NCBI RefSeq assembly: GCF_963576615.1
Contig: NC_088708.1
Span: 67,000,672 to 67,064,671 of the forward strand
Direction: 5' to 3'
DNA: 64,000 bases
Source: Watersipora subatra
Lineage: Eukaryota > Bryozoa > Gymnolaemata > Cheilostomatida > Watersiporidae
Shown: piece after piece, positions 250-43,800 of the stretch
Position numbering within the stretch: the first letter of the stretch is position 1
Layout: the number at the start of each line of letters is the position of its first letter
The notes under the pieces: generated by a model
The model's input: the letters and a program-made list of their open reading frames with translations, nothing else
What the model was told of the DNA's origin: nothing
Database searches by the model: none
Translations under genes and position numbers: made by a program

Positions 250-3200
250 GTTTGTCTAGGACACCGAGGTACTTGTTCTGTGACCTTCCTCCTTAAATAA
301 TGTTTCAGGGCCTGGGGTGGCAGTCAGAGGGTCTGGGTATCTCTAATTAACACTTCCAAAGTCCATATTGTATATAAGCAAGTCCCCTGATCCTGGATAG
401 CATTAACAACCTTCCATCGACTGTGAATGCACTTAAAACTGAATATCATATTGAAGCTCCAAGCTTGCAAAACTCAATGAAAATGAAAAAAACAGAGAAA
501 TCAAACAAAGTAAATAGATTTTTTCACACTTTCTAAGCAGTGTTGTTTTATAGGTAACTGAAGAAACCTAATGATAGCAGTTCACAGCGTCTGATAGAGT
601 CTGATAGAGTCCGATAGAGTCCGATAGAGTGTGTATATTTGTTATGTATAGAAGAACAACTAGTTTTAGTGTAAAACTTTTGGTGGTGAAAAGCTTTGTC
701 TCTTGTGATTATTCATTACCAAGAATTTTGATCAGTGTGTCATTAACAACTAGTGTTGTGTCAGTAGCTATTTTTAATTTCTTGGTCAGTTAGAAGAGCC
801 GTCGGTATCTTGGCGATATCTCAAGAGCCTTAAACCCAATTGACTTAAAACTTCATCATTAGACTAGAAACCTATTACTCACAAAGTGGCCAAAATTTCA
901 TAACTCTACGTAAATCGGAAGTGCAAAAAAGAAAAGCAAAACTAGTGTGCCGGGTCTGCTCAGGTGTAGGATCTAGTGGAAATTATAATTCCCCAAGTTA
1001 TCTCCAGCATAAAGCTTTAAAATGTTAAACATTTAGCAGAATGAAAAATTGTCTGCTCTTGGAAGTAGGTCATCACATATTTTATATTATTTTTATTGTT
1101 TATACATTTTATACTTTTGACTTTCAGGTTTCACAACCTTTTCTTCCTTACTTGGTAACAAGCTACAAGATAAACATATCATACATCCGCTCATCAAATG
1201 TGTGAAAAGAATATTTAAACGATTTAAAAGCGGTGTTTGCAATCGCAAGATATGTACTGAATTTTATATCCACAAAGTTCTTTCGCTTGCCAAGTACAGT
1301 CAAACATGGATAACTCGAACTTCACGGGACCGAGCGAAAGTGTTCGAATTATCAGAGCGTCCAAGTTATCAGAGCACTGTCACAAGTCTATGTATTTACT
1401 TATTTATTAGTAGATACATGTACATATACAAACTATAATATAAATCAAAAGCACAAATGGCTTGTTTCAAATTAAATGCTTCTAATGTAAAGTTTAAAAC
1501 GTTTTTATTAAAAAGTATAGAGATTTTTCTATCACTTGAGATTGGTTTGTTGTTTGAGGTGATGTTATTGCCAAGACGTTTTTAGATTGACATTGGCAAA
1601 ACTTGATCATTGTTGAAATGCTCAAAAGAAAAGACATCAGTACATATACAAACTATAATATAAATCAAAAGCACAAATGGCTTCCTTTTATACTTTTTAT
1701 AACAAGCGATATCTTTTTCAAATTTGTTTTAGCATCTCCGATTACGTTAGTAAGTCAAAAAATGTTATATAAAATGAAAAGGTCTTTGGTCTAGGGATTA
1801 GTATTTTCACATTTCCTTGCTATCAACCATATTGACTAGTTGTAGATAAACATAGCCTGAACATAAAAATTCATGTAAATCATTTCCCATCCAAAATTAT
1901 CTGATTAGAGCAACTGATTAGAGCACAGGCTATATTTTATCAGGTAATTGAGAAGTTAGCAAAACTGCACAATATCCAACCTGAGAAGTTAGAAACGCAA
2001 GTCAGCGAGTTCAAATATGACAGCACCTCTTCTGAGTACAACATGCTGATGGACCGCTACAGCTATTTACGAAGAGGTCAGTACCGTTCTTGAGTCAGGG
2101 AAATCAGTGTTCTGTTTTAGCCTTCTCTCTTTTGAACCTTTAGTCACCATGTTATACAAACCTCTTTAAGCGCTCGCCAAATCTTTTTGGCCAAAATACA
2201 CGCCAGCTCTGTACTGTAGGCTCGGTTTGCAGCATTGTCTTCTGGTAAACTTCTAACTAGCTAACTTAAATCTTTATTTAAAATACAACCACAATGCAAA
2301 TCTATATAATGGCTTTAAACAAAGGATATAAAATATTTGATTACATTATAGCTGATAAACATGCTAAACAGTTAAAACTGTACTCACTGTTTGTTGCTGC
2401 AATTTTCAGACAGGAAGCCAACTCTATAGTTTTTGCTATCTTTTTTCTGAGACATTATTTGTAATGATGCAATCTGTCTCTATCTATTTCACCTCTGCAG
2501 TTATTCTTTGGCAGCTATAATGGGTTTCTACAGGTGTAGAGATCCGTACCTGACATGATCTAGTAATCTCATGTCTGTTGGAGAGCCATTATGTAATTGG
2601 CATTTATTTCAGTAACAGTTTAAATATTATAATAAAATATTTTATACTGCAATAAACCTAATAGAGAGATTCACTTATTAAACCTGACTTTGTCATTAAC
2701 GGTGTATTTTCTGCAAATACTCATAAACAGCTCACCAATCACATTCTGGATGTTTTTCTGTAGAAACTAATATTTAGAATTTAGAACATACTGAAATATC
2801 GATGTGTGAGGTAAGATGCTTGTATAAGCCGAGTTTCTATAAACTAAAAACTGTTAGATCTGTTATACCATAACTTGCTAGTTAACCCTCCTATCTCTCT
2901 CTACTGCTGTTCCATGTACATTGCTCTTACATCTCTTCCATCTCTTACATATACATCTCTTCCTCACCTCTCTCTACCTCCCCTCTCTCTTCCACCCTCT
3001 CTCTTCCTCCCCTCTCTCTTCCTCTTCTCTCTTCTTCCCCTCTCCCTTTCTCCCCTCTCTCTTCCTCTTCTCTCTTCCTCCCAGCTCTCTTCCTCCCACC
3101 TCTTTCCCTCCCACCTCTCTCCCTCCCACCTCTCTCCCTCCCACCTCTCTCCCTCCCACCTCTCCCTTCCTCCCACCTCTCCCTTCCTCCCACCTCTCTC

Positions 3201-6200
3201 TTCCTCTCATCTCTTTCTTCCTCCCCTATCTCTTCCTCCCCTCTCTATACCTCCCCTCTCTCTCTTCCTTTCCTCTCTTTACCTTCCCTTTCTCCCCTCT
3301 CCCTTTCTCCCCTCTCTCTTCCTCTTCTCTCTTCCTCCCAGCCTCTCTTCTTCCCACCTCTCTTTTTTCCACCTCTCTTTTTCCCACCTCACCTCTCTCC
3401 CTCCCACCTCTCTCCCTCCCACCTCTCCCTTTCTCCCACCTCTCTCTTCCTCCCATCTCTATTTTCCTCCCACCTCTCTCTTCCTCCCACCTTTCTCTTT
3501 CTCCCACCTCTCTCTTCTTCTCCTCTCACTTCTTCCCCTCTCTCTTCCTCCCCTCTCTCTTCCTCCATTCTCTCTTCCTCCTCTTTTTCACTTTTCTTTC
3601 TCCCCTTTTTCTCTTTTCTCCCTTCTCTTTTTCTCTTTTCTCTCTCCCTTTTTTCTCTTTTTTCCCTTCCCTCTCTCTCTTTTCTTTCTCCTCCCTTCTT
3701 TCTCTTTTCCTTCCCCGCTTTCCATTGTCTCTTTCCCTCCCCTTTTCCTCTCTCCTTTTTCCCTCCCCTCTTTCTCCCTCTCCTCTTTCCCTTAATCCCC
3801 TTTTTCCCTCCCTCCCCTCTTTCCCTCTCGCCTCGTTTCCCTTTCTCTCCTCTTTCCCTCCCTCCTTTCTTCCTTCCTTTTCTCTCCCTTTCCTTTCTCT
3901 CCCTTTCTTTCCCTTCCCTTTCTCTCCCTTTCCTTTCTTTCCCTTTCTCTCCTTTCTCCTCTTCCTCTCTCCCCTCTCTCTTTCTGCACTCCCTCTGTCT
4001 CTCCACTCTCTCTCCCCTTCTCTCTCCCTCTCTTTTCTCCCTCTCCCCTCTCTCCCACTCTCTACCTTTCTTGCGTCTTTCCCACTCTCCCCCTTTTTCC
4101 CCCTCTCTTGGCTCTCTTTCTCTAATTTTTCTCAAGCCCTCCCGCTCTCTCCCTCCTCTCTTTATTTTTTTTCTTTACACTAAAAGAGACCATTCTAGAA
4201 AAACAAATGCGTGTTTTCTATGTTATTTCTGATAAATTGGTATTATTGAGGTAGCGTATCATTCATGTAGATAATGAAGTAAAAAATTACTCTAAATAGT
4301 AATGATAAAATTCAGGTTCAATTGACTTCTTTAAACTTTGCTGCATAAACTCAGTTTTTCTTTTTGGTGTACGATTCAATCTCTGCATTGTACTGGTTTA
4401 CAAAGTGTTAGCTGCATAGAGCAAGGTTAGAAGCTGAAATAGGCAAGATATGAACGTTGCGCGTCGTAGGATGAATTAGTTTTTTAAATCCTATCAAATA
4501 ACTACTCTAATGTTTATACAGTTTGAATGGTCATCCATGTAGTGCGGTGTATGTCAATAGGTCTTTCCCACAGCCCAAGTAATGCATGTTTCAGCACAGA
4601 TGTAAAATAAGTAAATTATCAGAAATATTTTCTTTCAACAGTAAAATAAACACCCCTGTTTATTGAAATGTGGTGGTTTTAATTGCTCAGTTTCTAGGTC
4701 AGACTTCTACCAGGTTAGATATGTATTCTGATTTAACAACTGACAGCTGAGAGCAGGTGCCCACAGTTGGCATACTATCCCCTTAGCATTGAGAGCATAT
4801 CATGCAGACCACTCAAGTAGCTGGTGAGGTTGGAAGCGAAACAATAGGGCCTTTTAAGATGTCGACCTTTTGATGCCCCCAGACATTCTAATTGACTAAC
4901 ATTCACCCGTACCTTAGCTGCGGGCAAGATATAACATCTTCACTTAAGACGCATTCATGTAGCAACTGGCCCCTCTAGTCGTAGAGAAAAAACAGAGACT
5001 TTTTACAACCACTCAGAGGCACTGCAGAGCAAATTATCACATATATACACTGGTAACATTACAAATCTGTTCAGAATTCAAACTTTATTCAGCGTAAAGT
5101 AGTTCATAGCACAAACATGGCATTGCAGTGATGCTATTTTTTAAAATGTGCACAATTGGGCTTAGCACATCTGTCCCATCATATTCTTACTTTAGAAAAC
5201 ATTGGGGTTTCCAATTGGCCATGTAAACAGAAACTGCAAACTTGTTAAAAGAAAATACAAAAAATATTGATCTTAATATATGAACATACAACTGTTATAG
5301 ATTTCAACGGTTGCAAGCGGGGCAGCAGTAGGATCTACAGTTTTACAGGACATTACTGCTAACTGAGGCTTGTGCCATTATGACATTTTGTTTGAGCTGT
5401 ACACTCATTATTGTTTACTCTTACCAGAAATTGTTTTTTTTATTTTACAGCCATTAACCTATTAGCTAAGGTAGTTGACTTCCCCTGACCCTTTCTTTTC
5501 AACTAACACAGAATTTTGTGAAGGCAACTACTACCATGTGGTACTTGCATTAACTGATGTTACCATGTGGTAGGATCTAGCATGGAAAAATATGATCAAG
5601 ACTCTCAAGAAAAAGTCAAGATGGTCAAGACAAAAACCAAGAATCTTTATGTTTTCAGATTGTTTTTACAGCCCGAAATATCACAAGCCCGCCAAAGAAG
5701 TACCAAAGAAAATTATGCATTGCAAGTACCACACACCTTGCCCCAAGATACAAAAAGCCAAACAGTCCTCCATCACGTATGAAGGCTATACTTGGAAGTG
5801 ATGTTAAAGATGACACTTGTGTTGGGCTGACACACGCAGTAAGTGCTTGCCATCTTTGACACCCTTTTAGACTGCGGTATTGCTTGTGGTGTATCGTTCA
5901 GACATGTAAAACAAGTGCCCTTATGGCTCAAGCCTCATCTTTAGAAAGGCGTTTGTGTTTGGATTACTTGTCCATCGGTTGCGAAAGTTACATAAGTGGC
6001 TGAGACTTCCTTTTTTGGGGATGAATAGCTATTAAATGTGCATGCAACAATACACCGGTCTTATAACACCTGTTGACTGAATAATGAGTGTTTTACTAGA
6101 AATATTAATGGTTTACATTATGAATATATGTTCTGCACATATATTGCATGCATAATTTCATCCAATATCCATATTTGTCACTGACACAATATAATTAGCT

Positions 6201-16021: not shown

Positions 16022-16321
16022 CTAGTACACTGGACTAAATGACGGCTGTGCAAAGGCATAGTATAGTTTTAACAACAGTGATATGGCTATAACTAGGAGA
16101 CTCAAGATGAGCAATGGATGGGTGCTCCCTGGCTTCTCAGCTAGGGAGTTCTGAACTCCCGCACCAGAGAGCTGACCAGGTTTTAGTGGTTCCGGCAATC
16201 CTTCTGGGCGTGATGCTATGCAATTGTCTAGAAGGGAACATTTCATGTAATGCTTGCCAGCACTTGTTATTCGTACGGTTAATTTCTTACCCATGAAGTC
16301 ACCATCCATGGGTACAAGTAC
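16022..16321 (-). CDS. CDKAL1: CDKAL1 exon 9: end of TRAM and membrane anchor
   Basis: Acceptor ATATTTTAG, 300 nt to TAG. It reads [20 protein letters not shown] and then, after a linker, the hydrophobic helix [20 protein letters not shown] with a short tail [10 protein letters not shown]. Confidence 0.95.
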   Translation of the reverse strand, partial: VLVPMDGDFMGKKLTVRITSAGKHYMKCSLLDNCIASRPEGLPEPLKPGQLSGAGVQNSLAEKPGSTHPLLILSLLVIAISLLLKLYYAFAQPSFSPVY

Positions 16322-19300
16322 CTAAAATATAACATGGCCAGGTAATTTTAGCCTCGTTCTTATTTGGGAACATGTGGCCACAACAGTTGATGCATACACG
16401 CTGCATTCTTCAGTCATTCCATATGTAGATACATTCCGTGACGCATTTCGTGGTGTCACGTCACGGCTCATGCTTGTGAAGTTTACAAACATGAGCTGAT
16501 CTTATCAAATAAACTTTTATGTGTTAAATAATGTGCAACTATAAATTAGGAGTAACCGAACAGAGAGAGTTATTCAACCAGCATAAAGTCAAACTTTTAG
16601 GATGATTCAATATTTGGATACCTTGTTTTCAAAATGGTAGAGTCGTTGAAAATATATAAACTTTTTGACAAGAAGCAAATTAGCACATTATAGCACATTA
16701 ACGATGGAAATAGTAATTAAAAACTTTGACTCTCGTCTTAACAACAAATATTTCAGGGGTTTCTACGTGTACCATAGAAGGTTACGTGCGACAAAATATA
16801 TAAACAAATGTAGGCCTATATCGTGGTATGGATAGGTATTTGTTTAGTCGTACTCAGGTCTGTAAACTTGGAGTTATCTTCTACTCGCTGCTCTCAACAA
16901 TATATGGCCAACACAGTAGTTAATTATTCTATCAAAGGCTACTAAAAGTTTTTTAGCACATCCTGAATGCGCTTGCTATAGTAAAAGCGTTGGGTTATTG
17001 TATCCTATAACAACTAAAATATTTGGTAAAGATCTCAGGCCATAGCTTTTGCAGACGTCGAAACATCGACTTGTCCGCTATCAATAGTTCTTACCGACTC
17101 AATTGCCGTTTACCATCATGTTTCCCTATTAGGTCAACAACTATTGTATTTCTCCTAAAATTGGTGGTATGCCTCCTGCGTACCTAATCATAGCCCCGAC
17201 GCGTAGGAAGTTCAAATGCACACTAAACCTAATAATAACAACAAATAACAAGGAAGTAAAGTAATGAAATTACCTGATCATAAGATTTGTTGTGCCCTAC
17301 ATAGAAGCATTTATCAGTAGAGAGTTCAGTGATAAGGACATCTTGTTGTTCCCCAATCTAAAAAATAATGACGCAATTCTGCATATTGTCTTCTCGTGGA
17401 TCAATGTAAATGTCATGGAAAGGCAACCCATAAAATAATTTGTCCATGTCAAAGGAACTAGAACACAACTCTGCTGATAACAACCAAAATGATGTTTCTG
17501 ATACACCAGCAAAATTGTTTCTATCACTACATGGAAAATTCAATTGCCTAAGCAAGAGATGGCCTAGCTAATTAAAAACCACCCAACAGACTAAACATGC
17601 ACCACTACCTAAGGTGAGATGAACCCGCCAGTTCATCTGCAAGTGCAGAAAAACCAGGTATAACAAATTTTATAGTAACCCACTACTTTATCACATGCAA
17701 GCATATTTACACTCATTTCCTACAGCAGTTGATTTTTAGTACTACATAAAACTAGATGGGGCCTAAACAAACTAGATGAAACACCAATCCCCTGAGGGGT
17801 TATACTAGTTCATGGGAAGGCCTTTCTAAAGCAAACTACACTACTTCAACCTGATATCTGCTAGGGCATTGAGTCAAATATTTACTGATTATGGGTTGGA
17901 CCGGTACAAGCCTGCTTCTTATTGGATAGTGTAGCTGACACAGTAGGTCTAATATCAACCTCCTCTACAGTAAATGTGTATAACACCACCCCCACCTTCT
18001 CTACATGTTGGCCACCACTGCTCATTTGGTGATTAGCCAGTGTTACATAGCTCTTGATTGGTAGCACAAACCACCTGACTATTTGCTAGCGTTACCTTGC
18101 CACTGATTGACTAGCTAGCGCCACACACCTGGTGATTGTACGGAAGGTAAGATTGAAAAAGCTCTGAAACTCTCTTGGTTCTCTTCTTGACGATGTTAGC
18201 TGGAATTCTCTGCATTTTGGCAGCAGGAGTGCCGGGACGCGGGAAGAATTGGTTGATGAACAGACTGGCGAATTTGTACTGCTCAACCAATTGCATGGTA
18301 CCTTCGAAGTCCTCCTCAGTTTCTGTAGGGAATCCGCATATTAAATCTGTGGCTATGTTCACACGTGGAACCCTGTAATGTGCAGCCATTACAGATGCCA
18401 AGAAACAACCTCCTAGAGAAGTCACAAGTCTGCTTTTCAACAGACTTTTTGCTCCTATTTTCAAACAAAATTTTTCTACTAAATATACCCATAGACATTG
18501 ACTAGGGAGGTCATAGCCATGAAGTAGTTTGATATCTTAACAGTGGTTGTATGAAAGAGTAGTAGTTGTCCTCTATATGAGCAAGAGGAAACAACTCACA
18601 ATGATTAGATAGACAACAAGCTGTCTTCGATACTATACCTTTGAAGCTCGGCAAGCAGAATGCTTGAAGGAGCCTTTGGAACAGGATTATTGTACAGCAG
18701 CCAGCAAAAATGGTGAAAACAAACGATAGCTGACTTGATATAAGTCCCGGAGCAGCTAGCTCTATGTCACCAATCTCACAAAAATAATCAGCTTTGCTAT
18801 CTAATGTGACACCTAAACTTATTGTAGAATTTATGTGGTCATATATCATTACATTCGAATTCTATTACATATTACATTAAATTCTATGACAGGCTATACC
18901 TAAACCAGCATAGCTGGATAGGTCTGAACAACTCCTCACCTCTTCTTGAGGAAATCCACAACATGCCTAAAGTCCTCGACTGTATACTCCCGCTTCATAT
19001 CAAAGAGCACATTGTCTGATCCAGCTTGCACCGGCACATGGAGGAAGGAGTAAACCTTCGGATGATTGAGTATCTTTGCTACTTCCTGCAACAGATAACA
19101 TTTCTCTGCACACAACTGCCTTATTGCCAAATGAAAAACATTCGCAAACTTGCAGTGCTCTAAGCTTCCACACTACAAAAGCAATGTAATTATTTTTCTG
19201 TTTGTTCTAATCTCATTTGCTTGGGCAAAAAATCAATTTTTAAAACGAATGCACATGGAATAACTTCCAGCACACCAACATGATAAGCCACAAAGAAAAT

Positions 19301-22300
19301 AAATGATATAGTTTTATCATAATTTAAAGTAATTTAGAGAAAAGAAACCAAAAACTTCTTTGTTAAAAAAACTGTTTCTAACATGTAACTACTGTACATT
19401 GATATCAGTTTTGAGCTCGTATAACCAGAGCTGTTCTCGTTAAATATTCAAAAAGACAATCAACACCGGGATTGTAGGTTGTGTTTGTTGCTATTATAGT
19501 ATTATAGGTACGTTAGTATTATAGGTACATGCATCTGAATTTAAACAGACGTGTGGATGTTTCTGGGTGTGAAGTCTATATTCAGAGACAAAATGTACAT
19601 AAGGGTTGGTTATAAGAACGAAAACACAGATGGCTCATAAGACGATAGGTAATTGAATAAGGATTTGCATGGTTTTACATTTGTGCTCCTAACAACCAAA
19701 CACTGCATAACTTCTGGTAAACCTTTTGAATTAACATTTATTAATGATTAGGTGAATACCCGGCATCACTTGGGTAATAAGATAGTCTTTGCACAGAAAA
19801 TTTATTTTTATTAAACATATTACAACAGTTAGCTACCAACTAATTTCTAAGCTTTATATCATGAGAAAAGTGTCTTGTGCAGTTCAAATAAATTAAAAAA
19901 AAATAAAACAATTGCAAAGGTCTTTAACTGTAAAATAATTAGAAAGTAGTAGGTACATACAGTCTGTTTTGCTACAATTATTATCAAAAATAATTTGATA
20001 ATGATACAATTAATACGAACTGGGAAAACAAAATAATAATCATGAATATGTTGAATTAATAATAACAATGAGAGTGTGTATAAAAAGTATACTGTTGCAG
20101 CAGAAGCTATCCATCAGAACTTCTAATACGCCGATACTGGTACCTCTCAATACTGGTACAAACGTAAAAATGAGATATCAGACTGTCTTCGTCTGATACT
20201 TTGTCTGACCGAATGAAGAGAGAACGTAAAGACAATTCCTATTTCAGATAATACAATTGTCCACATGAAAAGTATTTAGCTTTTACAGATTTAGCGATCG
20301 AGTCTTAAGAAAAACCGGAAATAGGAATGTAACGGCACATTTCAAATTGAAACAGCCCATTTGAAAAATACAAATTAAAAAAAAAGGTAATCAGTAATGG
20401 TAAAAGAGCTTGTAAAGAAATTTCTAAAGAAAAACGAACGCAAAAGATAATATTAATTAACAATAAAAAGTTCATGTTTAGCGTGTGCAATCGCGATAAG
20501 AATAGATAATTTAGAATGTTAAGTACGTCTTAGCCTAATGGTGACGCACGCTTATCAGTGGACGTGCATTTTGAATGTCGCGAGTTCAAATCCAGTACGA
20601 TGGTGATTTTTCGTCGTTATAAATATGCAGACTTACGACTGACAGACAGATGCTGTGATTTATAGATAATGAGAGACCAATATCAAACGCAGAATGTACC
20701 GAGAACATATGCTACTGGCATTCATCCAATTAAATGATTAGACTAAAGTGAAATCTTCCATTCATAGATATAGCAATAGGTATTCGAGTTCTACTTTTCA
20801 TTCACTTGTTTTTGTGTTCAAAGACGAAATTGACTGCTCCATGCATTTAGCATCTTGCCAAGTAAGTACATTTGAATCAATGAAATTAATGATTAGGCCT
20901 ACAATTGTGAAATATTGCTTTTTATTTGTTGAATCACAGTCTCAACTCTAATCTTTCACTTTTACTCAGTCTTGACCATTTATTCTGTACGTATTCAACA
21001 AAGATTATACAGCAAACTTGTAAAAAAGGTTATAAAATTTAACAAAGGCCAGTAGATGAACTGTGTGATTTCGAAGTAATATCCAAAAGTTTCTTGTCAT
21101 TTTTATACAACTCTGACTCATAACTGAGTGAGTATCCTGACACAGAATATCAAAATATAGAAGGTGAGTTTGATAATGCTGCAACTGCAGTTACAATTAG
21201 TTTTAGTAGGGCCATTCAGAGTGTGGTGAAACCTGAGGTTGAGAGTCTGTCAAGATCGGGCCTGGCTTATGTCCAGTTGACCATATGACTACACACTAAC
21301 ATGCACACTTGACCCAGTTTAACATGAAACATTTTAGGACTTCAGACATTTGTTATTAGAGAACCGGCGTTGGGTCGGAATCAAAAACTTGAAACTTAAC
21401 ATTAAAAAGGTTAACGCAGGGAGGAAGCTATAGAGACACAAAAACAAAGAACATTCCAAGAGCCATACCTCGAGGTGCTCAAGTATGTAGGGAGGATTGG
21501 TCATGCCAAGCCTTAGCATACACCCATCAGGTATAACTTCTACCAACTGCCATAACAGCTGGGGAAGAGTAACTCCAATATCTTTTCCATAGGCACCTGT
21601 GTCTTCTGAGGTTAACCATAGTTCAACAACTCCCTCTAGTAATATAGTTCAACAACTCCCTCTAGTAATATAGTTCAACAACTCCCTCTAGTAATATAGT
21701 TCAACAACTTCCTCTAGTAATATAGTTCGACAACTCCCTCTAGTAGTATAGTTCAACAACTCCCTCTAGTAATATAGTTCAACAACTCCCTCTAGTAATA
21801 TAGTTCAACAACTCCCTCTAGTAATATAGTTCAACAACTTCCTCTAGTAATATAGTTCAACAACTCCTTCTAGTAATATAGTTCAACGACTCCCTCTAGT
21901 AATATAGTTCAACAACTCCCTCTAGTAATATAGTTCAACAACTCCCTCTAGTAATATAGTTCAACAACTCCCTCTAGTAATATAGTTCAACAACTCCCTC
22001 TAGTAATACAGTTCAACAACTCCCTCTAGTAATACAGTTCAACAACTCCCTCTAGTAATATAGTTCAACAACTCCCTCTAGTAATATAGTTTAACAACTC
22101 CCTCTAGTGATATAGTTCAACAACTTCCTCTAGTAATATAGTTCAACAACTCCCTCTAGTAATATAGTTCAACAACTCCCTCTAGTAATATAGTTCAACA
22201 ACTCCCTCTAGTAATATAGTTCAACAACTCCCTCTAGTAATATAGTTCAACAACTCACTCTAGTAATATAGTTCAACAACTCCCTCTAGTAATATAGTTC

Positions 22301-25300
22301 AACAACTCCCTCTAGTGATATAGTTCAACAACTCCCTCTAGTAATATAGTTCAACAACTCTCTCTAGTAATATAGTTCAACAACTCCCTCTAGTAATATA
22401 GTTCAACAACTCCCTCTAGTAATATAGTTCAACAACTTCCTCTAGTAATATAGTTCAACAACTCCCTCTAGTAATATAGTTTAACAACTCCCTCTAGTAA
22501 TATAGTTCAACAACTCCCTCTAGTAATATAGTTTAACAACTCCCTCTAGTAATATAGTTCAACAACTCCCTCTAGTAATATAGTTCAACAACTTCCTCTA
22601 GTAATATAGTTCAACAACTTCCTCTAGTAATATAGTTCAACGACTCCCTCTAGTAATATAGTTCAACAACTCCCTCTAGTAATATAGTTTAACAACTCCC
22701 TCTAGTAATATAGTTCAACAACTCCCTCTAGTAATATAGTTCAACAACTTCCTCTAGTAATATAGTTCAACAACTTCCTCTAGTAATATAGTTCAACGAC
22801 TCCCTCTAGTAATATAGTTCAACAACTTCCTCTAGTAATATAGTTCAACAACTCCCTCTAGTGATATAGTTCAACAACTCCCTCTAGTAATATAGTTTAA
22901 CAACTCCCTCTAGTAATATAGTTCAACAACTCCCTCTAGTAATATAGTTCAACAACTTCCTCTAGTAATATAGTTCAACAACTTCCTCTAGTAATATAGT
23001 TCAACGACTCCCTCTAGTAATATAGTTCAACAACTTCCTCTAGTAATATAGTTCAACAACTCCCTCTAGTGATATAGTTCAACAACTCCCTCTAGTGATA
23101 TAGTTCAACAACTCCCTCTAGTAATATAGTTCAACAACTCCCTCTAGTAATATAGTTCAACAACTTCCTCTAGTAATATAGTTCAACAACTCCCTCTAGT
23201 AATATAGTTCAACAACTTCCTCTAGTAATATAGTTCAACAACTTCCTCTAGTAATATAGTTCAACAACTTCCTCTAGTAATATAGTTCAACAACTCCCTC
23301 TAGTAATATAGTTCAACAACTCCCTCTAGTAATATAGTTCAACAACTCCCTCTAGTAATATAGTTCAACAACTTCCTCTAGTAATATAGTTCAACAACTT
23401 CCTCTAGTAATATAGTTCAACAACTTCCTCTAGTAATATAGTTCAACAACTCCCTCTAGTAATATAGTTCAACAACTCCCTCTAGTAATATAGTTCAACA
23501 ACTCCCTCTAGTAATATAGTTCAACAACTTCCTCTAGTAATATAGTTCAACAACTCCCTCTAGTAATATAGTTCAACAACTCCCTCTAGTAATATAGTTC
23601 AACAACTCCCTCTAGTAATATAGTTCAACAACTCCCTCTAGTAATATAGTTTAACAACTCCCTCTAGTAATATAGTTCAACAACTCCCTCTAGTAATATA
23701 GTTCAACAACTTCCTCTAGTAATATAGTTCAACAACTTCCTCTAGTAATATAGTTCAACGACTCCCTCTAGTAATATAGTTCAACAACTTCCTCTAGTAA
23801 TATAGTTCAACAACTCCCTCTAGTAATATAGTTCAACAACTCCCTCTAGTAATATAGTTTAACAACTCCCTCTAGTGATATAGTTCAACAACTCCCTCTA
23901 GTAATATAGTTCAACAACTCCCTCTAGTGATATAGTTCAACAACTCCCTCTAGTAATATAGTTCAACAACTCCCTCTAGTAATATAGTTCAACAACTTCC
24001 TCTAGTAATATAGTTCAACAACTCCCTCTAGTAATATAGTTCAACAACTTCCTCTAGTAATATAGTTCAACAACTTCCTCTAGTAATATAGTTCAACAAC
24101 TCCCTCTAGTAATATAGTTCAACAACTTCCTCTAGTAATATAGTTCAACAACTCCCTCTAGTAATATAGTTCAACAACTTCCTCTAGTAATATAGTTCAA
24201 CAACTTCCTCTAGTAATATAGTTCAACAACTCCCTCTAGTAATATAGTTCAACAACTCCCTCTAGTAATATAGTTCAACAACTTCCTCTAGTAATATAGT
24301 TCAACAACTCCCTCTAGTAATATAGTTCAACAACTTCCTCTAGTAATATAGTTCAACAACTCCCTCTAGTAATATAGTTCAACAACTTCCTCTAGTAATA
24401 TAGTTCAACAACTTCCTCTAGTAATATAGTTCAACAACTCCCTCTAGTAATATAGTTCAACAACTCCCTCTAGTAATATAGTTTAACAACTCCCTCTAGT
24501 AATATAGTTCAACAACTCCCTCTAGTAATATAGTTCAACAACTCCCTCTAGTAATATAGTTCAACAACTCCCTCTAGTAATATAGTTTAACAACTCCCTC
24601 TAGTAATATAGTTCAACAACTCCCTCTAGTAATATAGTTCAACAACTCCCTCTAGTAATATAGTTCAACAACTCCCTCTAGTAATATAGTTTAACAACTC
24701 CCTCTAGTAATATAGTTCAACAACTCCCTCTAGTAATATAGTTCAACAACTTCCTCTAGTAATATAGTTCAACAACTCCCTCTAGTAATATAGTTCAACA
24801 ACTCCCTCTAGTAATATAGTTCAACAACTCCCTCTAGTAATATAGTTCAACAACTTCCTCTAGTAATATAGTTCAACAACTTCCTCTAGTAATATAGTTC
24901 AACAACTTCCTCTAGTAATATAGTTCAACAACTCCCTCTAGTAATATAGTTCAACAACTTCCTCTAGTAATATAGTTCAACAACTTCCTCTAGTAATATA
25001 GTTCAACAACTCCCTCTAGTAATATAGTTCAACAACTCCCTCTAGTAATATAGTTCAACAACTCCCTCTAGTAATATAGTTCAAATGACATTAAGTGATA
25101 CCTGCTCATACCTACAACTTCTGTAGAAGTGACAGACATGTACTGCATGACATAAATGTACTGCATGACATACATGTACTGCATGCCATACATGTACTGC
25201 ATGCCATACATGTACTGCATGCCATAAATGTACTGCATGACATACATGTACTGCATGCCATACATGTACTGCATGCCATACATGTACTGCATGTCATACA

Positions 25301-28300
25301 TGTACTGCATGACATACATGTACTGCATGACATACATGTACTGCATGTACTAGAAAAACATGTACTAACAAGTTGCACAATGCTCATGTATGTAAACATT
25401 GTCATAGCCAAAACCTTAACCAGCAACCCATTATTTCTGACGATTACATTTTAAGCTGCGTAGTACGATATAATATTATAATTTTCCTAATTTTTAAAAA
25501 TAGGTTCCAAAATTTGATACTCTAACTATTGACATAGAAAATGACATAAATTGGATTACTATCGATAAAGATAATCCAGATCTGACTGTAACTAATACAT
25601 TTGACGTTGAAATTCTAAAATTTAGTGACACCTAAAATCATTAAATACAGTATACAATAATGCCGACGCCAGCTATACTGTTATGACATATTTATGAGAA
25701 GTGAACTGTGATTTGAAGAGTTGTACACCTAATAATTAACTTCTCAACAAAAGCTAGGTATGCTATTGAGAACACAGCTCCGACGACTAAAGTGAAGACG
25801 CAATGAGGGAATATATTTAGCAGCACATTACCTTCAAATGACTGTACAGCACGCGCGACTATCTCCTCTGGGGGATAACTCCCCAGCTCTCCTCTGGCAT
25901 GCTTTGTTTTACAATATGTGCACTGATTTAGGCACCTGTAAATCAGTAACACCATAATACGATCTCACAAACACATATCTATGCGCCTTTCATAGCAAGC
26001 CCAGCAGGCTAGTGTCAACTATCCATGACATGGTAATACCACTTGTGAGCGACTCACAACCATAGTAACACTCAGAAGCCCTAGAGCAAGGAACAGTCTT
26101 GAGTAAAATAAAAGATAGGCCTATAAGCCAACCCACCCAGTGTTAATAGCTATAATCTCAATGAGTGGATTCTTTCTAATTTTAGGAAGATCGAGACGAG
26201 CGCCACCCAGCTTTCGACCCTCTGCTTTTTTCGAGCCATATAATCGCACTGTGTGACCTTTGAGAGTTTCCTCGACAACTTCGACTACTCTGTCAATCTG
26301 CTGTACTCCTATCACACTCAGACCCTGCAATGCATTCTGGTATGTAGAGAAAAGATAATCGCAGCACTTACAAGCTCTGACATAAGCGCATGACTCCGCT
26401 GTAGGCCAACCTTTTTTGATGTTCTAACGCGGTATGAACAATACTTTTACTCTATATCTCTCACACTGCATAAACAAATTGATCCATGTATAGCCACTTA
26501 TCAAACCTGTAAATAGCCAGATTTCTTCTCTCCTTGAGGCACACAACCCGCCACGACAACTTTCTTGTTTACACTCTGTGCCAGTTTAATCTCATTCCGG
26601 AAGTGGTCCTCCGCTGGGTTCTTTACTGTGCAGCTATTGAGAAGCCAAAGGTCAGCATCCTGTTTCGAACCTGACAGCGAGAGATGACCCTTTAAGAGCT
26701 TCAAATGCATCTACATTTAAACTTATCCAATAGCCTTCGCTCATACACATAAAGCACATAAATTACATAAGTACTGTTTCAGCTTATTCAGGTTCTTCAA
26801 TACCTTGGCTTTTAAATGAGCCATTGTTTAACATGGTGAGACAGATATTGGTTGGGGTTTATAGGATTCCCCAGAGCACTACTGCAGAAATCTTCAATGG
26901 TATAGGCTCGGAAATTGTGACACCACAATTTTCATATTCGGTGTTGTAAGCTCTTACCGCTTATTTTATCGCTTACCACTTATATTTATAAACTACAATA
27001 ATGACGCTAGTGTCATGCAAAGGTAGGACAACACCAGAAAACCAATGAATATGACAAAGGAATCAGTGTCATCAGCTCTCCATGTGCAGATTATTTTTAT
27101 GATAAATAACAGATTTCAAGCAACATACTATATTTTCCCAAATATTATGCACTAGCCCTCTCTTTTTATTGTGATGTTGAGGGACACGACTGAGGCTAAT
27201 TAAGTCTAAGCATTGCGTGATCGCGCAGGAGTGCAATTTACACATAGTCCTAGGGCCACTCGACTGTAGGTCACAATTTAATCGATGTGATTTCATTACC
27301 TTTACCACCATGGGTTGTAAAAGTCAATTGAAATAAATCAATCATTGGGGTTGACTCACTGCACTCCGGGATTGTTCAAAACAGAGAAGCCTACTGAACC
27401 AACTTAATCTGCCTTTAAGCTAGTATCATACAGAAAACGATTTATTTAACTGTCCGATACACCTGTTTTCTATTTTCCATATACTGTAATTTATTCGAAT
27501 ATACGGTAATATCAATATTGTAATTTTTATATTTTTTATATTTAATTACTAATTAGTCATTAATCAAGTTATTAATCATTTCTGTATGGGACAAACAATT
27601 CCATCATATAAAACGATGTGATAATAATTACTATAAATGTTTAAAATGAACGAAAGGATGAAAAAATTAAACTCTAACAATCACCCGAAATCTATAAACC
27701 CCGAACATATGTTTTATTATTAGCGCTCTCTGGGTTTAAGAGCACCGATTGTCCCAGAAAAGTGCAGCCTCAATGGCAGCGAAAGGAATTGACGATTTAA
27801 GGCTAAATGATAATTATGACATAACATTGTAGGAACCCCAACCAAGTGTTTATTGCAGGACATACTTTTGACACCCTGTTTTTCATAGTTCCATTATTCT
27901 TTGTGTATTGAATATAGGCTCATTTGAAAGCCAAGACTCCGATGTATTGAAATATAAGACTAGAAATTCCCCTGTCATACTGCCCATGACCAAAGTGATA
28001 TTGGAAAAATGAAAGGGTACTGATAGTTGAAAAATGCAGTATTAGCAATCAAATGGCACTGCAGTGCAATAGGATAACTGCAATGGTGGCTGCAATGGTA
28101 GCTGTAATGTACTGGGTGTTATTATGTACAACAAACAGCATTAATGAAAGGACAAGATTATGTTTATATCTCCCCTTGCAATAGGAGAAATGCAATATTA
28201 GAAGTAAGATGCACTGATATTATTATAATAACCAATATTATTAATATAGTAATACAGTAATAAAAGAAAACCAATGCACAATTTTGTTTACATTTCAAAA

Positions 28301-29871
28301 CGCCATAGCAACCAATATCAAGAAGTTGTGATATTTATCTAGATTTTTAGAAAATCTATTCAACAAAATTATTTAGAAAAAATAATAACAGTAACATATT
28401 GCCCAACATTGGTCACTATATACTTCGATCTTGTAAATTCAAATGACTATTCTTAGAATTAAATCTTAAAAAATCGAATAATTATTCTTATAATTAAACA
28501 TCGTGATAATCTTATAAGAATCGTTAGAAAAATATCATCATCATTTCCTTTACTTTCACTGCTTTGGAAATCAATTTGAATACCAAAGTACTCATTATAA
28601 GTGTCCAAAATGTCAGTTACTTTGAAATCGGCAAAAAAGAAACGATTACTTTTCAGTACTTCTACGTTAGTTACAGAAACCTTCGGCAATTTGACAATGC
28701 TATAGACTGGTGAAATGTACACGTTTTTCTCGTGAAATGCGAACGACTTAATGGTTCTACTCAGTCTCACGGCCTTCTTGGCGTTTCGTTGGCCAGTCTT
28801 AATTTTGATTAAAAAAGGCTTGTCAGGTTTTAATGGCGATTTTAGGCCAAACTAATCTGTCTAAGTATGTATTATCCGATCAGATGGGTAAGATTACGAT
28901 ATTGTCTCAACTTTTCAAAGACTTGGTAACATATTTAAATAGGTTTATATGTGTTGTGTATCATTATTACACTTACACGACTCTATATGGAAATGGTTAA
29001 ATTTTTTCATGGGATTTTTGTACAAGGGTTTGGTTACGTTCATTGACGGATAAGTTTTCGGGAGTTGTGTGCACATATGCATTTATCATAAAGCTCCCGA
29101 ACAACCGCTTCGGGAACAATCGCTCGGATAAAAGTACTTATGTCATTGATGTGCTTTAACAGCATCTCATTGGAGCTAATTGAGTAAGCCATAAGCAATA
29201 ACTTGCATGTTCGTTACAATCTAACGGGACTGTACATGTACTACCAAGCTTTGCATGACTTTTTCATGGCCCTTTGATTTACCCTGTGTCAGTGTAGCTA
29301 CTTTAACTAAAGTGATACATATATCATTATTGTCATTAGAAGGATATAGTTCTTGATTACCATGTGATGGCCACCCATAGTTTCACCGATTGCAATAGGT
29401 GGCTTTATAGAAATGTTCAACTTCCTTTATAGTTTAAAGCAATTTTTAACTTCATCACATTCTTAAGTTATAGAGTGAGTCATAATAAGTAGAAGAACTA
29501 AAAGGCTCAAGTCTTGCCATATCTCAGCTATGTAGACTTAGAGCGTATGTCGGCATGGAGCAATGGCTATAAATACACTTTCTTAGAGAGAGTCAGATAG
29601 GAAATTTATAATGCGCACCAACAATCTTGTAGCCATAAGATGCCAGTTGACCAGCCATATATTCGCCATCAGAGTTGTTATGGGAGCAGCCCCAGGTCTT
29701 TACATAGATACTCTGAGTTCCGGGGATCACGCTGTCCGCATTCGGAGCCAGCACATCACCATTTTCTTTCTTGTTCAAACGTTTGAACTTTGGTACAACC
29801 AACTTCCTCGAATGGTACCGCTCATTTGGTGTAACATCATCCTCCCCGATAAGATCTTCGATGTCATCCAT
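16022..29871 (-). CDS. CDKAL1: CDKAL1: threonylcarbamoyladenosine tRNA methylthiotransferase (complete, 9 coding exons)
   Basis: Coding exons in order: 29871-29619, 26670-26507, 26324-26137, 25935-25832, 21635-21469, 19085-18940, 18372-18129, 17357-17274 and 16321-16022. They sum to 1650 nt (549 residues plus stop; human about 579) with consistent phases. The enzyme is a radical-SAM methylthiotransferase that turns t6A37 of tRNA-Lys(UUU) into ms2t6A37. Visible: the three cysteines of the N-terminal MTTase domain (Cys62 in [12 protein letters not shown], Cys98 in [10 protein letters not shown], Cys127 in AGCVPQG), the radical-SAM CxxxCxxC (Cys203, 207, 210), a TRAM region, and a C-terminal membrane helix (about 519-538) matching the ER tail anchor of the vertebrate protein. 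Start chosen at MDDIEDLI, which aligns with LLDDIEDIV in human. Intron 4 is swollen by minisatellites, intron 5 by a Helitron. Confidence 0.95.
17274..17357 (-). CDS. CDKAL1: CDKAL1 exon 8: start of TRAM region
   Basis: Acceptor ATTTTTTAG, donor GATCAG|GTAATT, 84 nt. It reads [20 protein letters not shown] then GHNKSYDQ, matching IGERQQVLVTEESFDSKFYV of human. Confidence 0.92.
18129..18372 (-). CDS. CDKAL1: CDKAL1 exon 7
   Basis: Acceptor CATTACAG, donor CACCAG|GTGTGT, 244 nt. It encodes [20 protein letters not shown] and [16 protein letters not shown], classic MTTase signatures, up to SYLPYNHQ. Confidence 0.96.
18940..19085 (-). CDS. CDKAL1: CDKAL1 exon 6
   Basis: Acceptor CTGTTGCAG, donor AAGAG|GTGAGG. 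It encodes [20 protein letters not shown] and then [20 protein letters not shown], the radical-SAM barrel. Confidence 0.95.
19748..20666 (-). mobile_element. Non-autonomous Helitron, 919 bp
   Basis: On the minus strand it starts TCTATAAATCACAGC after an A. It ends with the hairpin ACCC...GGGT (19757-19776), then CTAA and a host T. This is the Helitron pattern: 5' TC, 3' hairpin plus CTRR, insertion between A and T, no duplication. Its 5' part shares a tRNA-like block (20521-20600) and other stretches with the Helitron at 48039-49274. The exact 5' end is inferred. It lies in CDKAL1 intron 5, same strand as the gene. Confidence 0.72.
20521..20600 (+). repeat. tRNA-like block inside the Helitron
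   Basis: Box A-like TAGCCTAATGGTG and box B-like GAGTTCAAATCC about 50 bases apart, as in tRNA-derived SINE heads, but no cloverleaf closing stem is seen. It is antisense to the Helitron. The same block occurs inverted at about 48110-48210. Confidence 0.6.
21469..21635 (-). CDS. CDKAL1: CDKAL1 exon 5
   Basis: Acceptor ATTACTAG, donor CTCGAG|GTATGG, 167 nt, phase 1 in and 0 out. With the preceding G it reads [20 protein letters not shown], aligning with [20 protein letters not shown] of human, so the acceptor position is well supported. Its first 15 bases are the exonic part of the 26-bp repeat. Confidence 0.95.
21621..25084. repeat. 26-bp minisatellite, 133 units, each copying the exon 5 splice acceptor
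   Basis: GTTC recurs in register every 26 bases; 21621 and 25079 differ by exactly 133 units with no net indel. Read on the minus strand, each unit is 11 bases TATATTACTAG followed by 15 bases AGGGAGTTGTTGAAC. The unit at the array's left edge is the real junction: its TAG ends intron 4 and its 15 bases begin exon 5, where the sequence then diverges into TATGGTTAACC. Units vary mainly by transitions: ACTCCC/ACTTCC, GTAATA/GTGATA, GTTC/GTTT and CAAC/CGAC. Confidence 0.97.
21636..25831 (-). other. CDKAL1 intron 4, almost entirely tandem repeats
   Basis: 4196 bases, of which about 3.46 kb are the 26-bp array and about 0.22 kb an 18-bp array. The remaining 0.5 kb next to the donor is ordinary AT-rich intron. 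Confidence 0.9.
25136..25355. repeat. 18-bp minisatellite, 12 units
   Basis: Units of the form CATGTACTGCATGCCATA, varying mainly at the CC position (GACATA, GTCATA) and at the first C. The period is a multiple of three and stop-free in some frames, giving MQYMYG-type open frames that are a by-product. It lies about 55 bases from the 26-bp array. Confidence 0.95.
25832..25935 (-). CDS. CDKAL1: CDKAL1 exon 4: radical-SAM CxxxCxxC
   Basis: Acceptor GATTTACAG, donor GAAG|GTAATG, 104 nt. It encodes [20 protein letters not shown], the 4Fe-4S-binding triad, then [14 protein letters not shown]. Confidence 0.96.
26137..26324 (-). CDS. CDKAL1: CDKAL1 exon 3
   Basis: Acceptor GCATTGCAG, donor ACTGG|GTGGGT. 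It encodes [20 protein letters not shown] and [20 protein letters not shown] equivalents (here [20 protein letters not shown]), leading into the radical-SAM domain. Confidence 0.95.
26507..26670 (-). CDS. CDKAL1: CDKAL1 exon 2
   Basis: Acceptor TCGCTGTCAG, donor TTACAG|GTTTGA. Residues 85-139, including [20 protein letters not shown] and [10 protein letters not shown] (second and third MTTase cysteines). Confidence 0.95.
27700..29618. other. Distal CDKAL1 intron 1
   Basis: AT-rich. It contains an unassigned minus-strand open frame at 28459-28851 and otherwise nothing recognised. Confidence 0.5.
28459..28851 (-). CDS. Unrecognised 131-codon open stretch in CDKAL1 intron 1
   Basis: Same strand as CDKAL1, open from just after a TAG at 28852-28854 to a stop at 28459. 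It reads [20 protein letters not shown], then [20 protein letters not shown] and [18 protein letters not shown]. It has low-complexity-free, coding-like composition in an AT-rich intron. There is no in-frame ATG near the start of the open stretch. Splicing into CDKAL1 from the exon 1 donor would give a stop within ten codons, so it is not a CDKAL1 exon. Probably a gene or mobile-element relic; family unknown. Confidence 0.35.
   Translation of the reverse strand, partial: FGLKSPLKPDKPFLIKIKTGQRNAKKAVRLSRTIKSFAFHEKNVYISPVYSIVKLPKVSVTNVEVLKSNRFFFADFKVTDILDTYNEYFGIQIDFQSSESKGNDDDIFLTILIRLSRCLIIRIIIRFFKI
29619..29871 (-). CDS. CDKAL1: CDKAL1 exon 1 (first coding)
   Basis: Met at 29871, donor GTTG|GTGCGC, phase 1 out. 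It encodes residues 1-84, with a variable acidic/basic N-terminus and then [20 protein letters not shown], the first MTTase-domain cysteine. Confidence 0.93.
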
Positions 29872-40807: not shown

Positions 40808-43800
40808 GTGAGCACAGCTTTAACCTGATGCACAATTAAACTATATCAATGCAGTAAAATGTTTTGGAATAGCCGGTGTATGTTCTATTGATTGATTGCT
40901 TGATACCAACTTCAACTTGCTAGTTTGTAGTGTATGATGTTTACTTGGCTTTTCTTAACAATCAAATACATTTAATGTACATTTATTTTTTTGTTTAAGC
41001 TTCAAGTATGCAACATGATTGTTAGAGCCATTCGTAATTAGGTATCTGTACATGCTCCTATCGATATTGGTGCTATAGGTATCCAGAGTTTTGGTATCAA
41101 GACGTGACCAGTGCTGAGAGATATTATTCCCTTGCTGCCACACATCCAGTTGATGGACATATTATTGGAATGATTGTGTGTGATGTAAAGTCTCTCAAAC
41201 AGGTTAACAGAGAGGTAGGTTTTGGTCTCAATTATAGTTTCATGGAGAGTACTTCTGGTCGGTTGGTCCCATTTACTACTGTGTTCAGGGTTGGAAAAAA
41301 TCATTTTGTAGAAAAAAATATTGGATTTTTTTCATAAAATTAATTATTCAATGCCAATGATGTTTTAGAAAAATTAGATCAAATAACTGTAATGTGAATT
41401 TTGTTGCAAGTCAACCTTCAAGCACATTTTTTTGATGTGATCGATGCTGTGGATCATGCAAAGTATTATTGCCAACTTTTCCAGTACCTAGCCAGTTTCT
41501 TATTTTTAATGAATGAAACCAAAAGTGGAGAATGCTTGCAGTTGAGCACTTTTGAAAACTGGACTAGGTACAGATGCTACCTCACAATTATTCCTGTTTT
41601 GCGGCTTTCTGTTTTGTTACTGTGTTAACATCAATCTTGTATGCTATTGTATACTAATTCATTCTATTTACTACTGTTTACTAGTCTATCATACTACTGT
41701 ATACTAGTTTATCATATTTACTACTGTGTACTAGTCTATCATATTTACTACTGTATACTAGTATGTCATATTTACTACTGTATACTAGTTTATCATATTT
41801 ACTACTGTATACTAGTCTATCATATTTACTACTGTATACTAGTCTATCATATTTACTACTGTATACTAGTCTATCATATTTACTACTCTATACTAGTATG
41901 TCATATTTACTACTGTGTACTGGTCCATCATATTTACTACTGTGTACTAGTATATCATATTTACTACTGTATACTAGTATATCATATTTACTACTGTATA
42001 CTAGTCTATCATATTTACTACTGTATACTAGTATGTCATATTTACTACTGTATACTAGTCTATCATATTTTCTACTGTGTACTAGTCTATCATATTTACT
42101 ACTGTATACTAGTATGTCATATTTACTACTGTATACTAGTCTATCATATTTACTACTGTATACTAGTCTATCATATTTACTACTGTATACTAGTCTATCA
42201 TATTTACTACTGTATACTAGCATGTCATATTTACTACTCTATACTAGTTTATCACATTTACTACTGTGTACTGGTCCATCATATTTACTACTGTGTACTA
42301 GTATATCATATTTACTACTGTATACTAGTATATCATATTTACTACTGTATACTAGTATATCATATTTACTACTGTGGACTGGTCCATCATATTCACTACT
42401 GTATACTAGTCTATCATATTTACCACTGTGTACTAGTCTATCATATTTACTACTGTGTACTAGTCCATCATATTTATTACTGTGTACTATTCTATCATAT
42501 TTACTATATATCAACTTGCACCTACTTGATGTTTTCTGGAATTTTCATGTAATGCGAAGCAAAAACTTTACATACCGTAAAACCTCTAATTGAACGCCAT
42601 CTCTATTTGAACGTCACCTCCAATTGACCGCCAACCTGAGAGAAGGATTGAAAAATAGACTGCCACTCTCTAATCGAACGCCACCTCCATTTGACCGCCA
42701 CTTTGACATTACTTTATCTTTACGAGTCCATAATATCAATGACCAGTCGCAAAGTGTCCACAAAATCGTGAATCTTTCACATCAATAACAATTAACTCTC
42801 TTGGGGTCCAACTCTAAAGCTTTTCATTTTATTTCCCTTAAAACTTTGAAAGCAACACCACAAAAATAATTAATAACTGTCTCAGGCTAATAGTAGTTCC
42901 TTATAGTAGATACTTCGAAGTACAAGTATATAAAATCGGTTTACATTTACGATGGCACAAAGGTTACGTTTAGCGAGCAAAACTTTTACGCGTTGCGTTT
43001 GCGTTAAAAGCAAAGCATAAAATTTTTGCTTTGCCAAAACATTGTTTGAAAGCTAATATCGACTAGCTCAGCAGTGCAGAAGAAAAGTTGAGGTCAGAAG
43101 ACATTGTTGGGGGGTACAGTACAACCAAAAGCTGTTCGTTCCATCGAAAGCAACAATCAGAACGCAGCTGTCAGAGCGATTGATGGAAATATTTTTGTTT
43201 TTAAACATCAATTTCTGTTTCTGCATGTAATATAAGTATGGTTCATTTATGTCACTTGTTCATGAATATTTGTATCATTTGATCAATTATCATTATATAA
43301 CTTATAAATATGCAGATTTATCTCATATTATTTAATAGCATCCTCGTGGTTAGCTTAACACGGCTTACAATGAATGTTTTATTTGCACATAAAAAGCTCT
43401 TTTATTGCACATAAAAAGCTAGTTTTGGCTGCAAACTGTAGCAAACATATTGATGAGTACAATGAGCTTTTATTCAATATTGTTAAAAGTAGATATAAAA
43501 TAAAAATATGCCCCCAAATTTAGAATGAGATTAAAAATTGAATGCTCTAACAAATTGCCAAGCAAGGCTATAATATCATCGCAGATTAATTGCAAGTAAT
43601 AGATAACCACTAGTAGAGCTATCCTTTCGCTTTCCAATGCATATTTTATTTAGACATCTTTGACAAGTTAAAGGTAAGTTAGCAGATTCCAGTTAGTAGG
43701 CTAGCCATCAGCTCCAGCATACTAATCTCCGCATTCTAGCAGAATCTTCTCAGTTCATCTCTTGGCCACACATAGTCTATCATATGATCGAGACTAACTT

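Follow-up and report, generated by a model that had tools for sequence, protein, structure and literature searches.

A 133-unit minisatellite across an intron–exon boundary of CDKAL1 in the bryozoan Watersipora subatra, probably a tolerated by-product of repeat growth

Here we analyse a stretch of 64,000 nucleotides from the bryozoan Watersipora subatra (C1:67000672-67064671, within the 783.7-Mb assembly; hereafter the window), in which intron 4 of the CDKAL1 gene ends in a tandem array of 133 near-identical 26-bp units, each with a copy of the intron's own splice acceptor. We will argue that this array is probably a boundary-spanning minisatellite of the published 'mirage' type that grew in place, and that it is a tolerated by-product of repeat growth and not a regulator of the gene. 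Splicing was read from the DNA, from protein models and from the proteins of relatives, in one W. subatra assembly, and published sources are cited for excerpts of their text. The gene name was assigned both by us and in an earlier first-pass annotation of the same DNA, and it is also the source name of some of the listed relatives.

Results and Discussion

CDKAL1 was traced on the minus strand as nine coding exons joined by GT-AG introns (29871 to 16022), and the joined exons stay open for 549 codons up to the stop. The features are as follows, a slash marking a splice junction here and below.

29619..29871, minus strand, coding exon 1
26507..26670, minus strand, coding exon 2
26137..26324, minus strand, coding exon 3
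25832..25935, minus strand, coding exon 4, ending ...TTTGAAG/GTAATG
21636..25831, minus strand, intron 4, 4,196 nt, of which the array makes up about 82% by arithmetic
21469..21635, minus strand, coding exon 5, 167 nt, donor GAG/GTATGG
18940..19085, minus strand, coding exon 6
18129..18372, minus strand, coding exon 7
17274..17357, minus strand, coding exon 8
16022..16321, minus strand, coding exon 9, including the stop
21618..25084, minus strand, 26-bp minisatellite of 133 complete units and a further 9 bp, lying across the intron 4/exon 5 boundary
25053..25078, minus strand, first, intron-side unit; the first base after its acceptor is 25067
21621..21646, minus strand, last unit, the junction that yields the intact protein; AG at 21637-21636, exon 5 starting at 21635

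The predicted 549-residue protein is identical to the threonylcarbamoyladenosine (t6A) tRNA methylthiotransferase-like protein of W. subatra at NCBI (P0001), and it scores 515.8 bits against the t6A methylthiotransferase model TIGR01578, for which the cut-off is 314.7. The first-pass annotation is borne out in its choice of gene, strand and phase, and in taking the unit at the left edge of the array as the real junction.

Tandem Repeats Finder (TRF) gives the array a period of 26, 133.3 copies and no indels. On the minus strand the unit reads TATATTACTAG + AGGGAGTTGTTGAAC, i.e. the final 11 nt of intron 4 and the initial 15 nt of exon 5, and the array runs 18 nt into the exon, its last 18 nt (21635-21618) being coding. 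Read in fixed steps, the 133 head-to-tail units contain 68 substitutions over 3,458 positions (98.0% identity to the consensus), and every unit is within two mismatches of the consensus. There are 11 unit types, the consensus type accounting for 68 of the 133 units, and the variation is limited to 9 of the 26 positions. The AG that closes the intronic part is kept in all 133 units and TAGAG is present in 132; since 17 of the 26 positions never vary, the retention of the AG is weak evidence of function, and selection on it is not claimed.

The assembly was also searched with the unit at up to three mismatches, which gave at least 133 matches, the number of units in the array, and none for the reversed control. 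Among the matches listed, every place of the unit in the 783.7-Mb assembly falls within the array, and elsewhere in the window no match was found at up to seven mismatches. The 133-unit acceptor array that had been noticed in the first pass is thus confirmed by TRF and by the fixed-step reading, and it lies far beyond chance.

Two further arrays are close to this one in position or period. Just upstream of it in intron 4, at 25130-25347, there are 12 copies of an 18-bp unit, with 12 CAG trinucleotides on the minus strand. A separate array of seven 26-bp units is located at 57594-57778, and its consensus differs from that of the CDKAL1 array.

It is extremely improbable that the copy number was inflated, or the array misplaced, in assembly. 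Tandem arrays are error-prone, and one of the amphioxus mirages discussed below was aberrantly assembled in a draft, as reported in PMC3087553. However, the W. subatra HiFi data comprise 2.20 million reads with a total of 13.30 Gb, behind a published assembly of 783.70 Mb (PMC12902671), and reads of ca 6 kb, as arithmetic gives, can span 3.5 kb. Furthermore, variant units are scattered through the array without a uniform order, and the coding sequence that flanks it is unbroken. We note separately that the same source states the 13.30 Gb to be ca 39-fold, while 13.30 Gb divided by 783.7 Mb is ca 17-fold.

The consequences of using the different acceptors were evaluated in silico. The intron 4/exon 5 junction is in phase 1, and the end of exon 4 (...TCA TTT GAA G) continues into exon 5 as S-F-E-E-G-V-V-E-L-W. 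The last TAG is the sole acceptor among the 133 that keeps the frame. If exon 4 were instead joined to an upstream unit, the transcript would read the exon 4 end + AGGGAGTTGTTGAACTATATTACTAG, and for 131 of the 132 upstream acceptors this leads to a stop ending 26 nt past the join and a product of 244 residues. This is the outcome claimed in the first pass; the remaining acceptor, in a unit with GAGTGAG, meets a still earlier stop. Early stops result also from skipping of exon 5 and from retention of intron 4. The second AG, 2 nt downstream (TAGAG/GGA), was considered as an acceptor in the last two units and was rejected, as it gives a frameshift and an early stop. Four exon junctions of the gene model still lie downstream of the upstream-acceptor stops, and with such an arrangement nonsense-mediated decay would be expected.

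The 244-residue product was used as a query against protein databases, giving 1,025 matches, of which 120 relatives were listed. No W. subatra protein, truncated or otherwise, is among these 120, and databases rarely hold truncated products; the highest identity among the matches listed is 81%. The K-T/A-K-H-A-R-G motif is present in 90 of the 120, and 14 of these 90 stop short of the next conserved motifs. In six of the 14 fragments the departure from the common sequence falls exactly on the junction residue, and the codon there begins with G, as expected for a phase 1 intron preceded by a G; the departing residue is G in human isoform X7 (P0128), in the Brachyhypopomus fish P0156, and in P0213 and P0237, and V in P0186 and P0233. 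The position of the boundary is thus fixed by the phase, by the NCBI model and by the exon end common to the vertebrate products. The first-pass annotation had itself raised the objection that exon 5 might start elsewhere; both the identical NCBI model and the exon end of the shortened vertebrate products appear to speak against this.

The residues encoded within the array, EGVVEL or EGVVEI, are common in CDKAL1 relatives, and the exonic part of the unit is therefore, on sequence grounds, ancestral coding sequence and not derived from a satellite. With the full protein as the query, 78 of the 120 relatives listed, its own entry included, match the motif, with E in 77, G in 78 and V in 78; the residue after EGV is C in 48, V in 29 and T in one, these counts omitting the 42 relatives that do not match the motif.

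As to the origin of the array, the same 9-mer is found at both of its ends.

25076..25084, minus strand, intron-side copy of the 9-bp direct repeat TTGAACTAT
21618..21626, minus strand, exon-side copy of the 9-bp direct repeat TTGAACTAT

From these ends, the single-copy ancestor was most likely TTGAACTAT ATTACTAG/AGGGAGTTG TTGAACTAT, in which the 9-mer occurred twice, 26 bp apart, across the junction. Short flanking direct repeats are a familiar starting point of minisatellite growth. Elsewhere in the window (56,017 bases), a 9-mer is repeated at a spacing of 26 eight times, some of these within other repeats. As the unit was found at no other place in the assembly, it probably grew in place, and an origin from a mobile or dispersed satellite was rejected, the unit having been found only at the CDKAL1 locus, both among the assembly matches listed and in the window at up to seven mismatches. 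The array ends thus support the duplication across the junction that had been proposed in the first pass.

The rare unit types are not evenly spread. Five of these types, with six units between them, are confined to the 29 units closest to exon 5 (permutation p 0.00035; 0.0006 when the other two-copy type is added, one unit of which is far off; 0.002 for single-copy types alone), these tests having been picked after inspection of the data. The exon-side end of the array therefore looks older or less homogenised. In the amphioxus mirages, cluster boundaries are described as excluded from homogenisation (PMC3087553). Higher-order repeat structure was also considered, and none is shown: no series of unit types longer than 8 recurs, while the shuffles have a mean of 7.97 and a maximum of 12.

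Two candidate branch points were located by motif match only.

25090..25094, minus strand, TTAAT, full yUnAy match, probable original branch point
21665..21669, minus strand, ATTAC in the penultimate unit, UnAy match, candidate branch point for the true acceptor, with its A at −31

The A of TTAAT is at −24 of the acceptor of the first unit and at −50 of that of the second. It is the sole full yUnAy match seen near the array acceptors, and the unit consensus has none. The probable original match now stands before the first unit, 3.4 kb off, in line with the displacement of the branch-point region suggested in the first pass. With the full match more than 3.4 kb away, the true acceptor would need the ATTAC of the repeat itself. 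UnAy is kept in 132 of the 133 units. The AG of the penultimate unit comes just 4 nt past its ATTAC, a distance at which an AG would usually be bypassed. As background, PMC7317903 deals with human NF1 and with AGs that lie in the neighbourhood of its branch points. The pyrimidine content of the acceptor (0.56) is inside the range of the other CDKAL1 introns (0.50-0.69). RNA structure that would hide acceptors is not supported, since the region 21560-21739, with the last units and the start of exon 5, is predicted to be less structured than 200 of 200 shuffles (z +2.77).

The explanation that we favour can then be formulated as follows. The starting point would be an old CDKAL1 intron junction with a 9-bp direct repeat, one copy intronic and the other exonic. 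Slippage or unequal exchange between these copies would have duplicated the 26 bp, with subsequent expansion to 133 units, in which the coding copy would have remained intact and all other copies would have become intron. The true acceptor probably uses a branch point supplied by the preceding unit, and the spliceosome would mostly pick the last acceptor because this one defines exon 5 together with the exon's own donor. As the other 132 acceptors lead to an early stop, transcripts from them would be expected to go by nonsense-mediated decay. On this reading, the array is most likely a tolerated by-product of repeat growth.

It is important to point out that a number of observations weigh against this explanation. 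Eight of the 14 fragments lack the shared exon end: P0173, P0176 and P0191 diverge a few residues past the junction, P0227 differs before it, P0134 terminates exactly at it, and P0157, P0165 and P0175 terminate before it. It is conceivable that the NCBI model was built on protein homology, and slippage and unequal exchange are indistinguishable here. In four of the seven other CDKAL1 introns, too, a full yUnAy match is missing from the stretch 15-60 nt upstream of the acceptor, so that the scan discriminates poorly. Using a position matrix built from a tiny set of 11 other acceptors, namely seven from CDKAL1 and four from a monocarboxylate transporter 14 (MCT14)-like gene in the window, the array acceptor scores −13.3, compared to leave-one-out values of −18.6 to 6.9, and 10 of the 11 other acceptors score higher. 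It falls at the 20th percentile of 590 background AGs and is outscored even by the AG 2 nt downstream (−8.1), although this one is frameshifting. So low a score speaks against heavy use of any one unit, and this holds for the true one as well.

Similar arrangements have been described before. Minisatellite-like duplications of intron-exon boundaries were termed 'mirages' in amphioxus globins, with Adh3 and other genes cited as well (PMC3087553), and TnC and PGBD5 were added later (PMC3902484). Adh3 data and globin RT-PCR suggest that mirages leave regular splicing undisturbed (PMC3087553), and the Adh and TnC mirages are reported to yield no aberrant mRNAs (PMC3902484). The CDKAL1 array shares several of the properties by which PMC3087553 describes mirages: it is a minisatellite-like tandem duplication, its unit spans the boundary, and cryptic splice signals are present in the repeats. 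The description also comprises length instability between haplotypes or cells, as well as regular splicing at the authentic boundary, which would be in line with the NCBI protein model. As in Adh3, BflGb6/BflGb9, TnC and PGBD5, many units carry the splice signal, the authentic boundary unit is at the edge, and edge units escape, or in CDKAL1 seem to escape, homogenisation; as in BflGb6, the unit joins the 3' end of the intron to the 5' part of the exon. The differences are those of size, the array of BflGb6 being made up of 3-6 units, each 150-160 bp long, and the units of Adh3 measuring 10-72 bp, compared to 133 units of 26 bp here, and of host, the amphioxus genes being cephalochordate and the present one bryozoan, with an AG in every unit.

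Other systems are more distant. In human IFI6 (6-16/G1P3), a minisatellite at an exon boundary likewise multiplies a splice site and gives multiple donors (Turri et al. 1995, cited in PMC4526556; also PMC3618361). In that case, however, it is the donor side that is affected and downstream units are used to make isoforms, whereas in CDKAL1 it is the acceptor that is multiplied, and the products predicted in silico are dead ends. NAGNAG acceptors also compete side by side, and TAGAG occurs in 132 of the 133 units, but NAGNAG sites are separated by 3 nt, with a difference of three bases in the transcript (PMC3250501), whereas the array has 133 sites 26 nt apart, with stops. An ordinary intronic minisatellite is similar in period, purity and likely mode of growth; the CDKAL1 array differs from it by entering a coding exon by 18 nt. 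In a literature search with few terms, the records listed made no mention of such an array for a bryozoan or for CDKAL1; the excerpts of PMC13326412 mention no tandem repeat, minisatellite or intron, and those of PMC2206037 no mirage. The array is not categorically new and looks like an extreme case of the published mirage repeats. New in this case are the phylum, the number of copies and the fact that all wrong acceptors lead to a stop.

With this precedent, functional consequences of the array can be weighed. One scenario is noisy splicing, in which the upstream acceptors would often be used in an uncontrolled manner, lowering the yield of CDKAL1 mRNA as a mild burden. The many near-identical competing acceptors and their weak context are consistent with it, but the amphioxus precedent is one of regular splicing and the NCBI model is an intact product, and we consider this scenario unlikely.

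Another option is that the array is a regulatory set of poison acceptors, where a controlled fraction of transcripts is spliced upstream and decayed, so that array length or splicing-factor levels set the output of CDKAL1. We regard this as very unlikely. All 132 upstream acceptors lead to an early stop that has four exon junctions of the gene model after it, as a poison acceptor would require, the AG is kept throughout, and the best branch-point match precedes the first unit. Against it are the 120 relatives listed, none of which is a truncated W. subatra product, the amphioxus counterparts reported without aberrant mRNAs, and the weakness of AG retention as evidence. What speaks for regulation is the arrangement itself and nothing further, and it is not the leading reading. 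In its most specific form, which we find slightly less likely still, the array would be a length-encoded rheostat, i.e. a ladder of 133 near-identical poison acceptors whose length would vary both between and within colonies and determine what share of the CDKAL1 transcripts avoids decay. If this were true, array length would set the level of the tRNA modification made by CDKAL1 (2-methylthio on t6A). The first-pass annotation had put forward that acceptor choice sets the output of the gene and that array length tunes it; in view of the weak acceptor score, the amphioxus precedent and the absence of a listed truncated product, this is not supported so far.

Other features of the window

The MCT14-like gene lies at 60622-62500, and at least two relatives of it (P0243, P0244) are listed on a contig of equal length (79,350,317 bases), pointing to a possible local family. 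At 62527-63353, in an intron of this gene according to NCBI P0241, there is an array of ca 10 copies of an 83-bp unit. It starts ca 26 nt after the donor AACAG/GTTCCT, and GTAATA, a donor-like motif, is present in nine of 10 units. A start of the array at the stop codon or donor of the gene was ruled out, as P0241 places it in the intron. An array of ca 32 copies of a 27-bp unit at 41644-42506 has two open frames of ca 300 codons on the plus strand. Finally, ca 1.1 kb at 2956-4062 is nearly pure pyrimidine on the plus strand, with a GC skew of −0.97 at 3001-4000.

Conclusion

The boundary-spanning array in CDKAL1 suggests that mirages occur outside the cephalochordates as well. The amphioxus result of undisturbed splicing rests, in the globin gene, on arrays of three to six units. 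The W. subatra gene offers a natural test of how the spliceosome chooses one acceptor among 133 that are near-identical, and at this copy number, with a stop behind each wrong choice, exon definition, branch points supplied by the repeat and the clean-up by nonsense-mediated decay become measurable.

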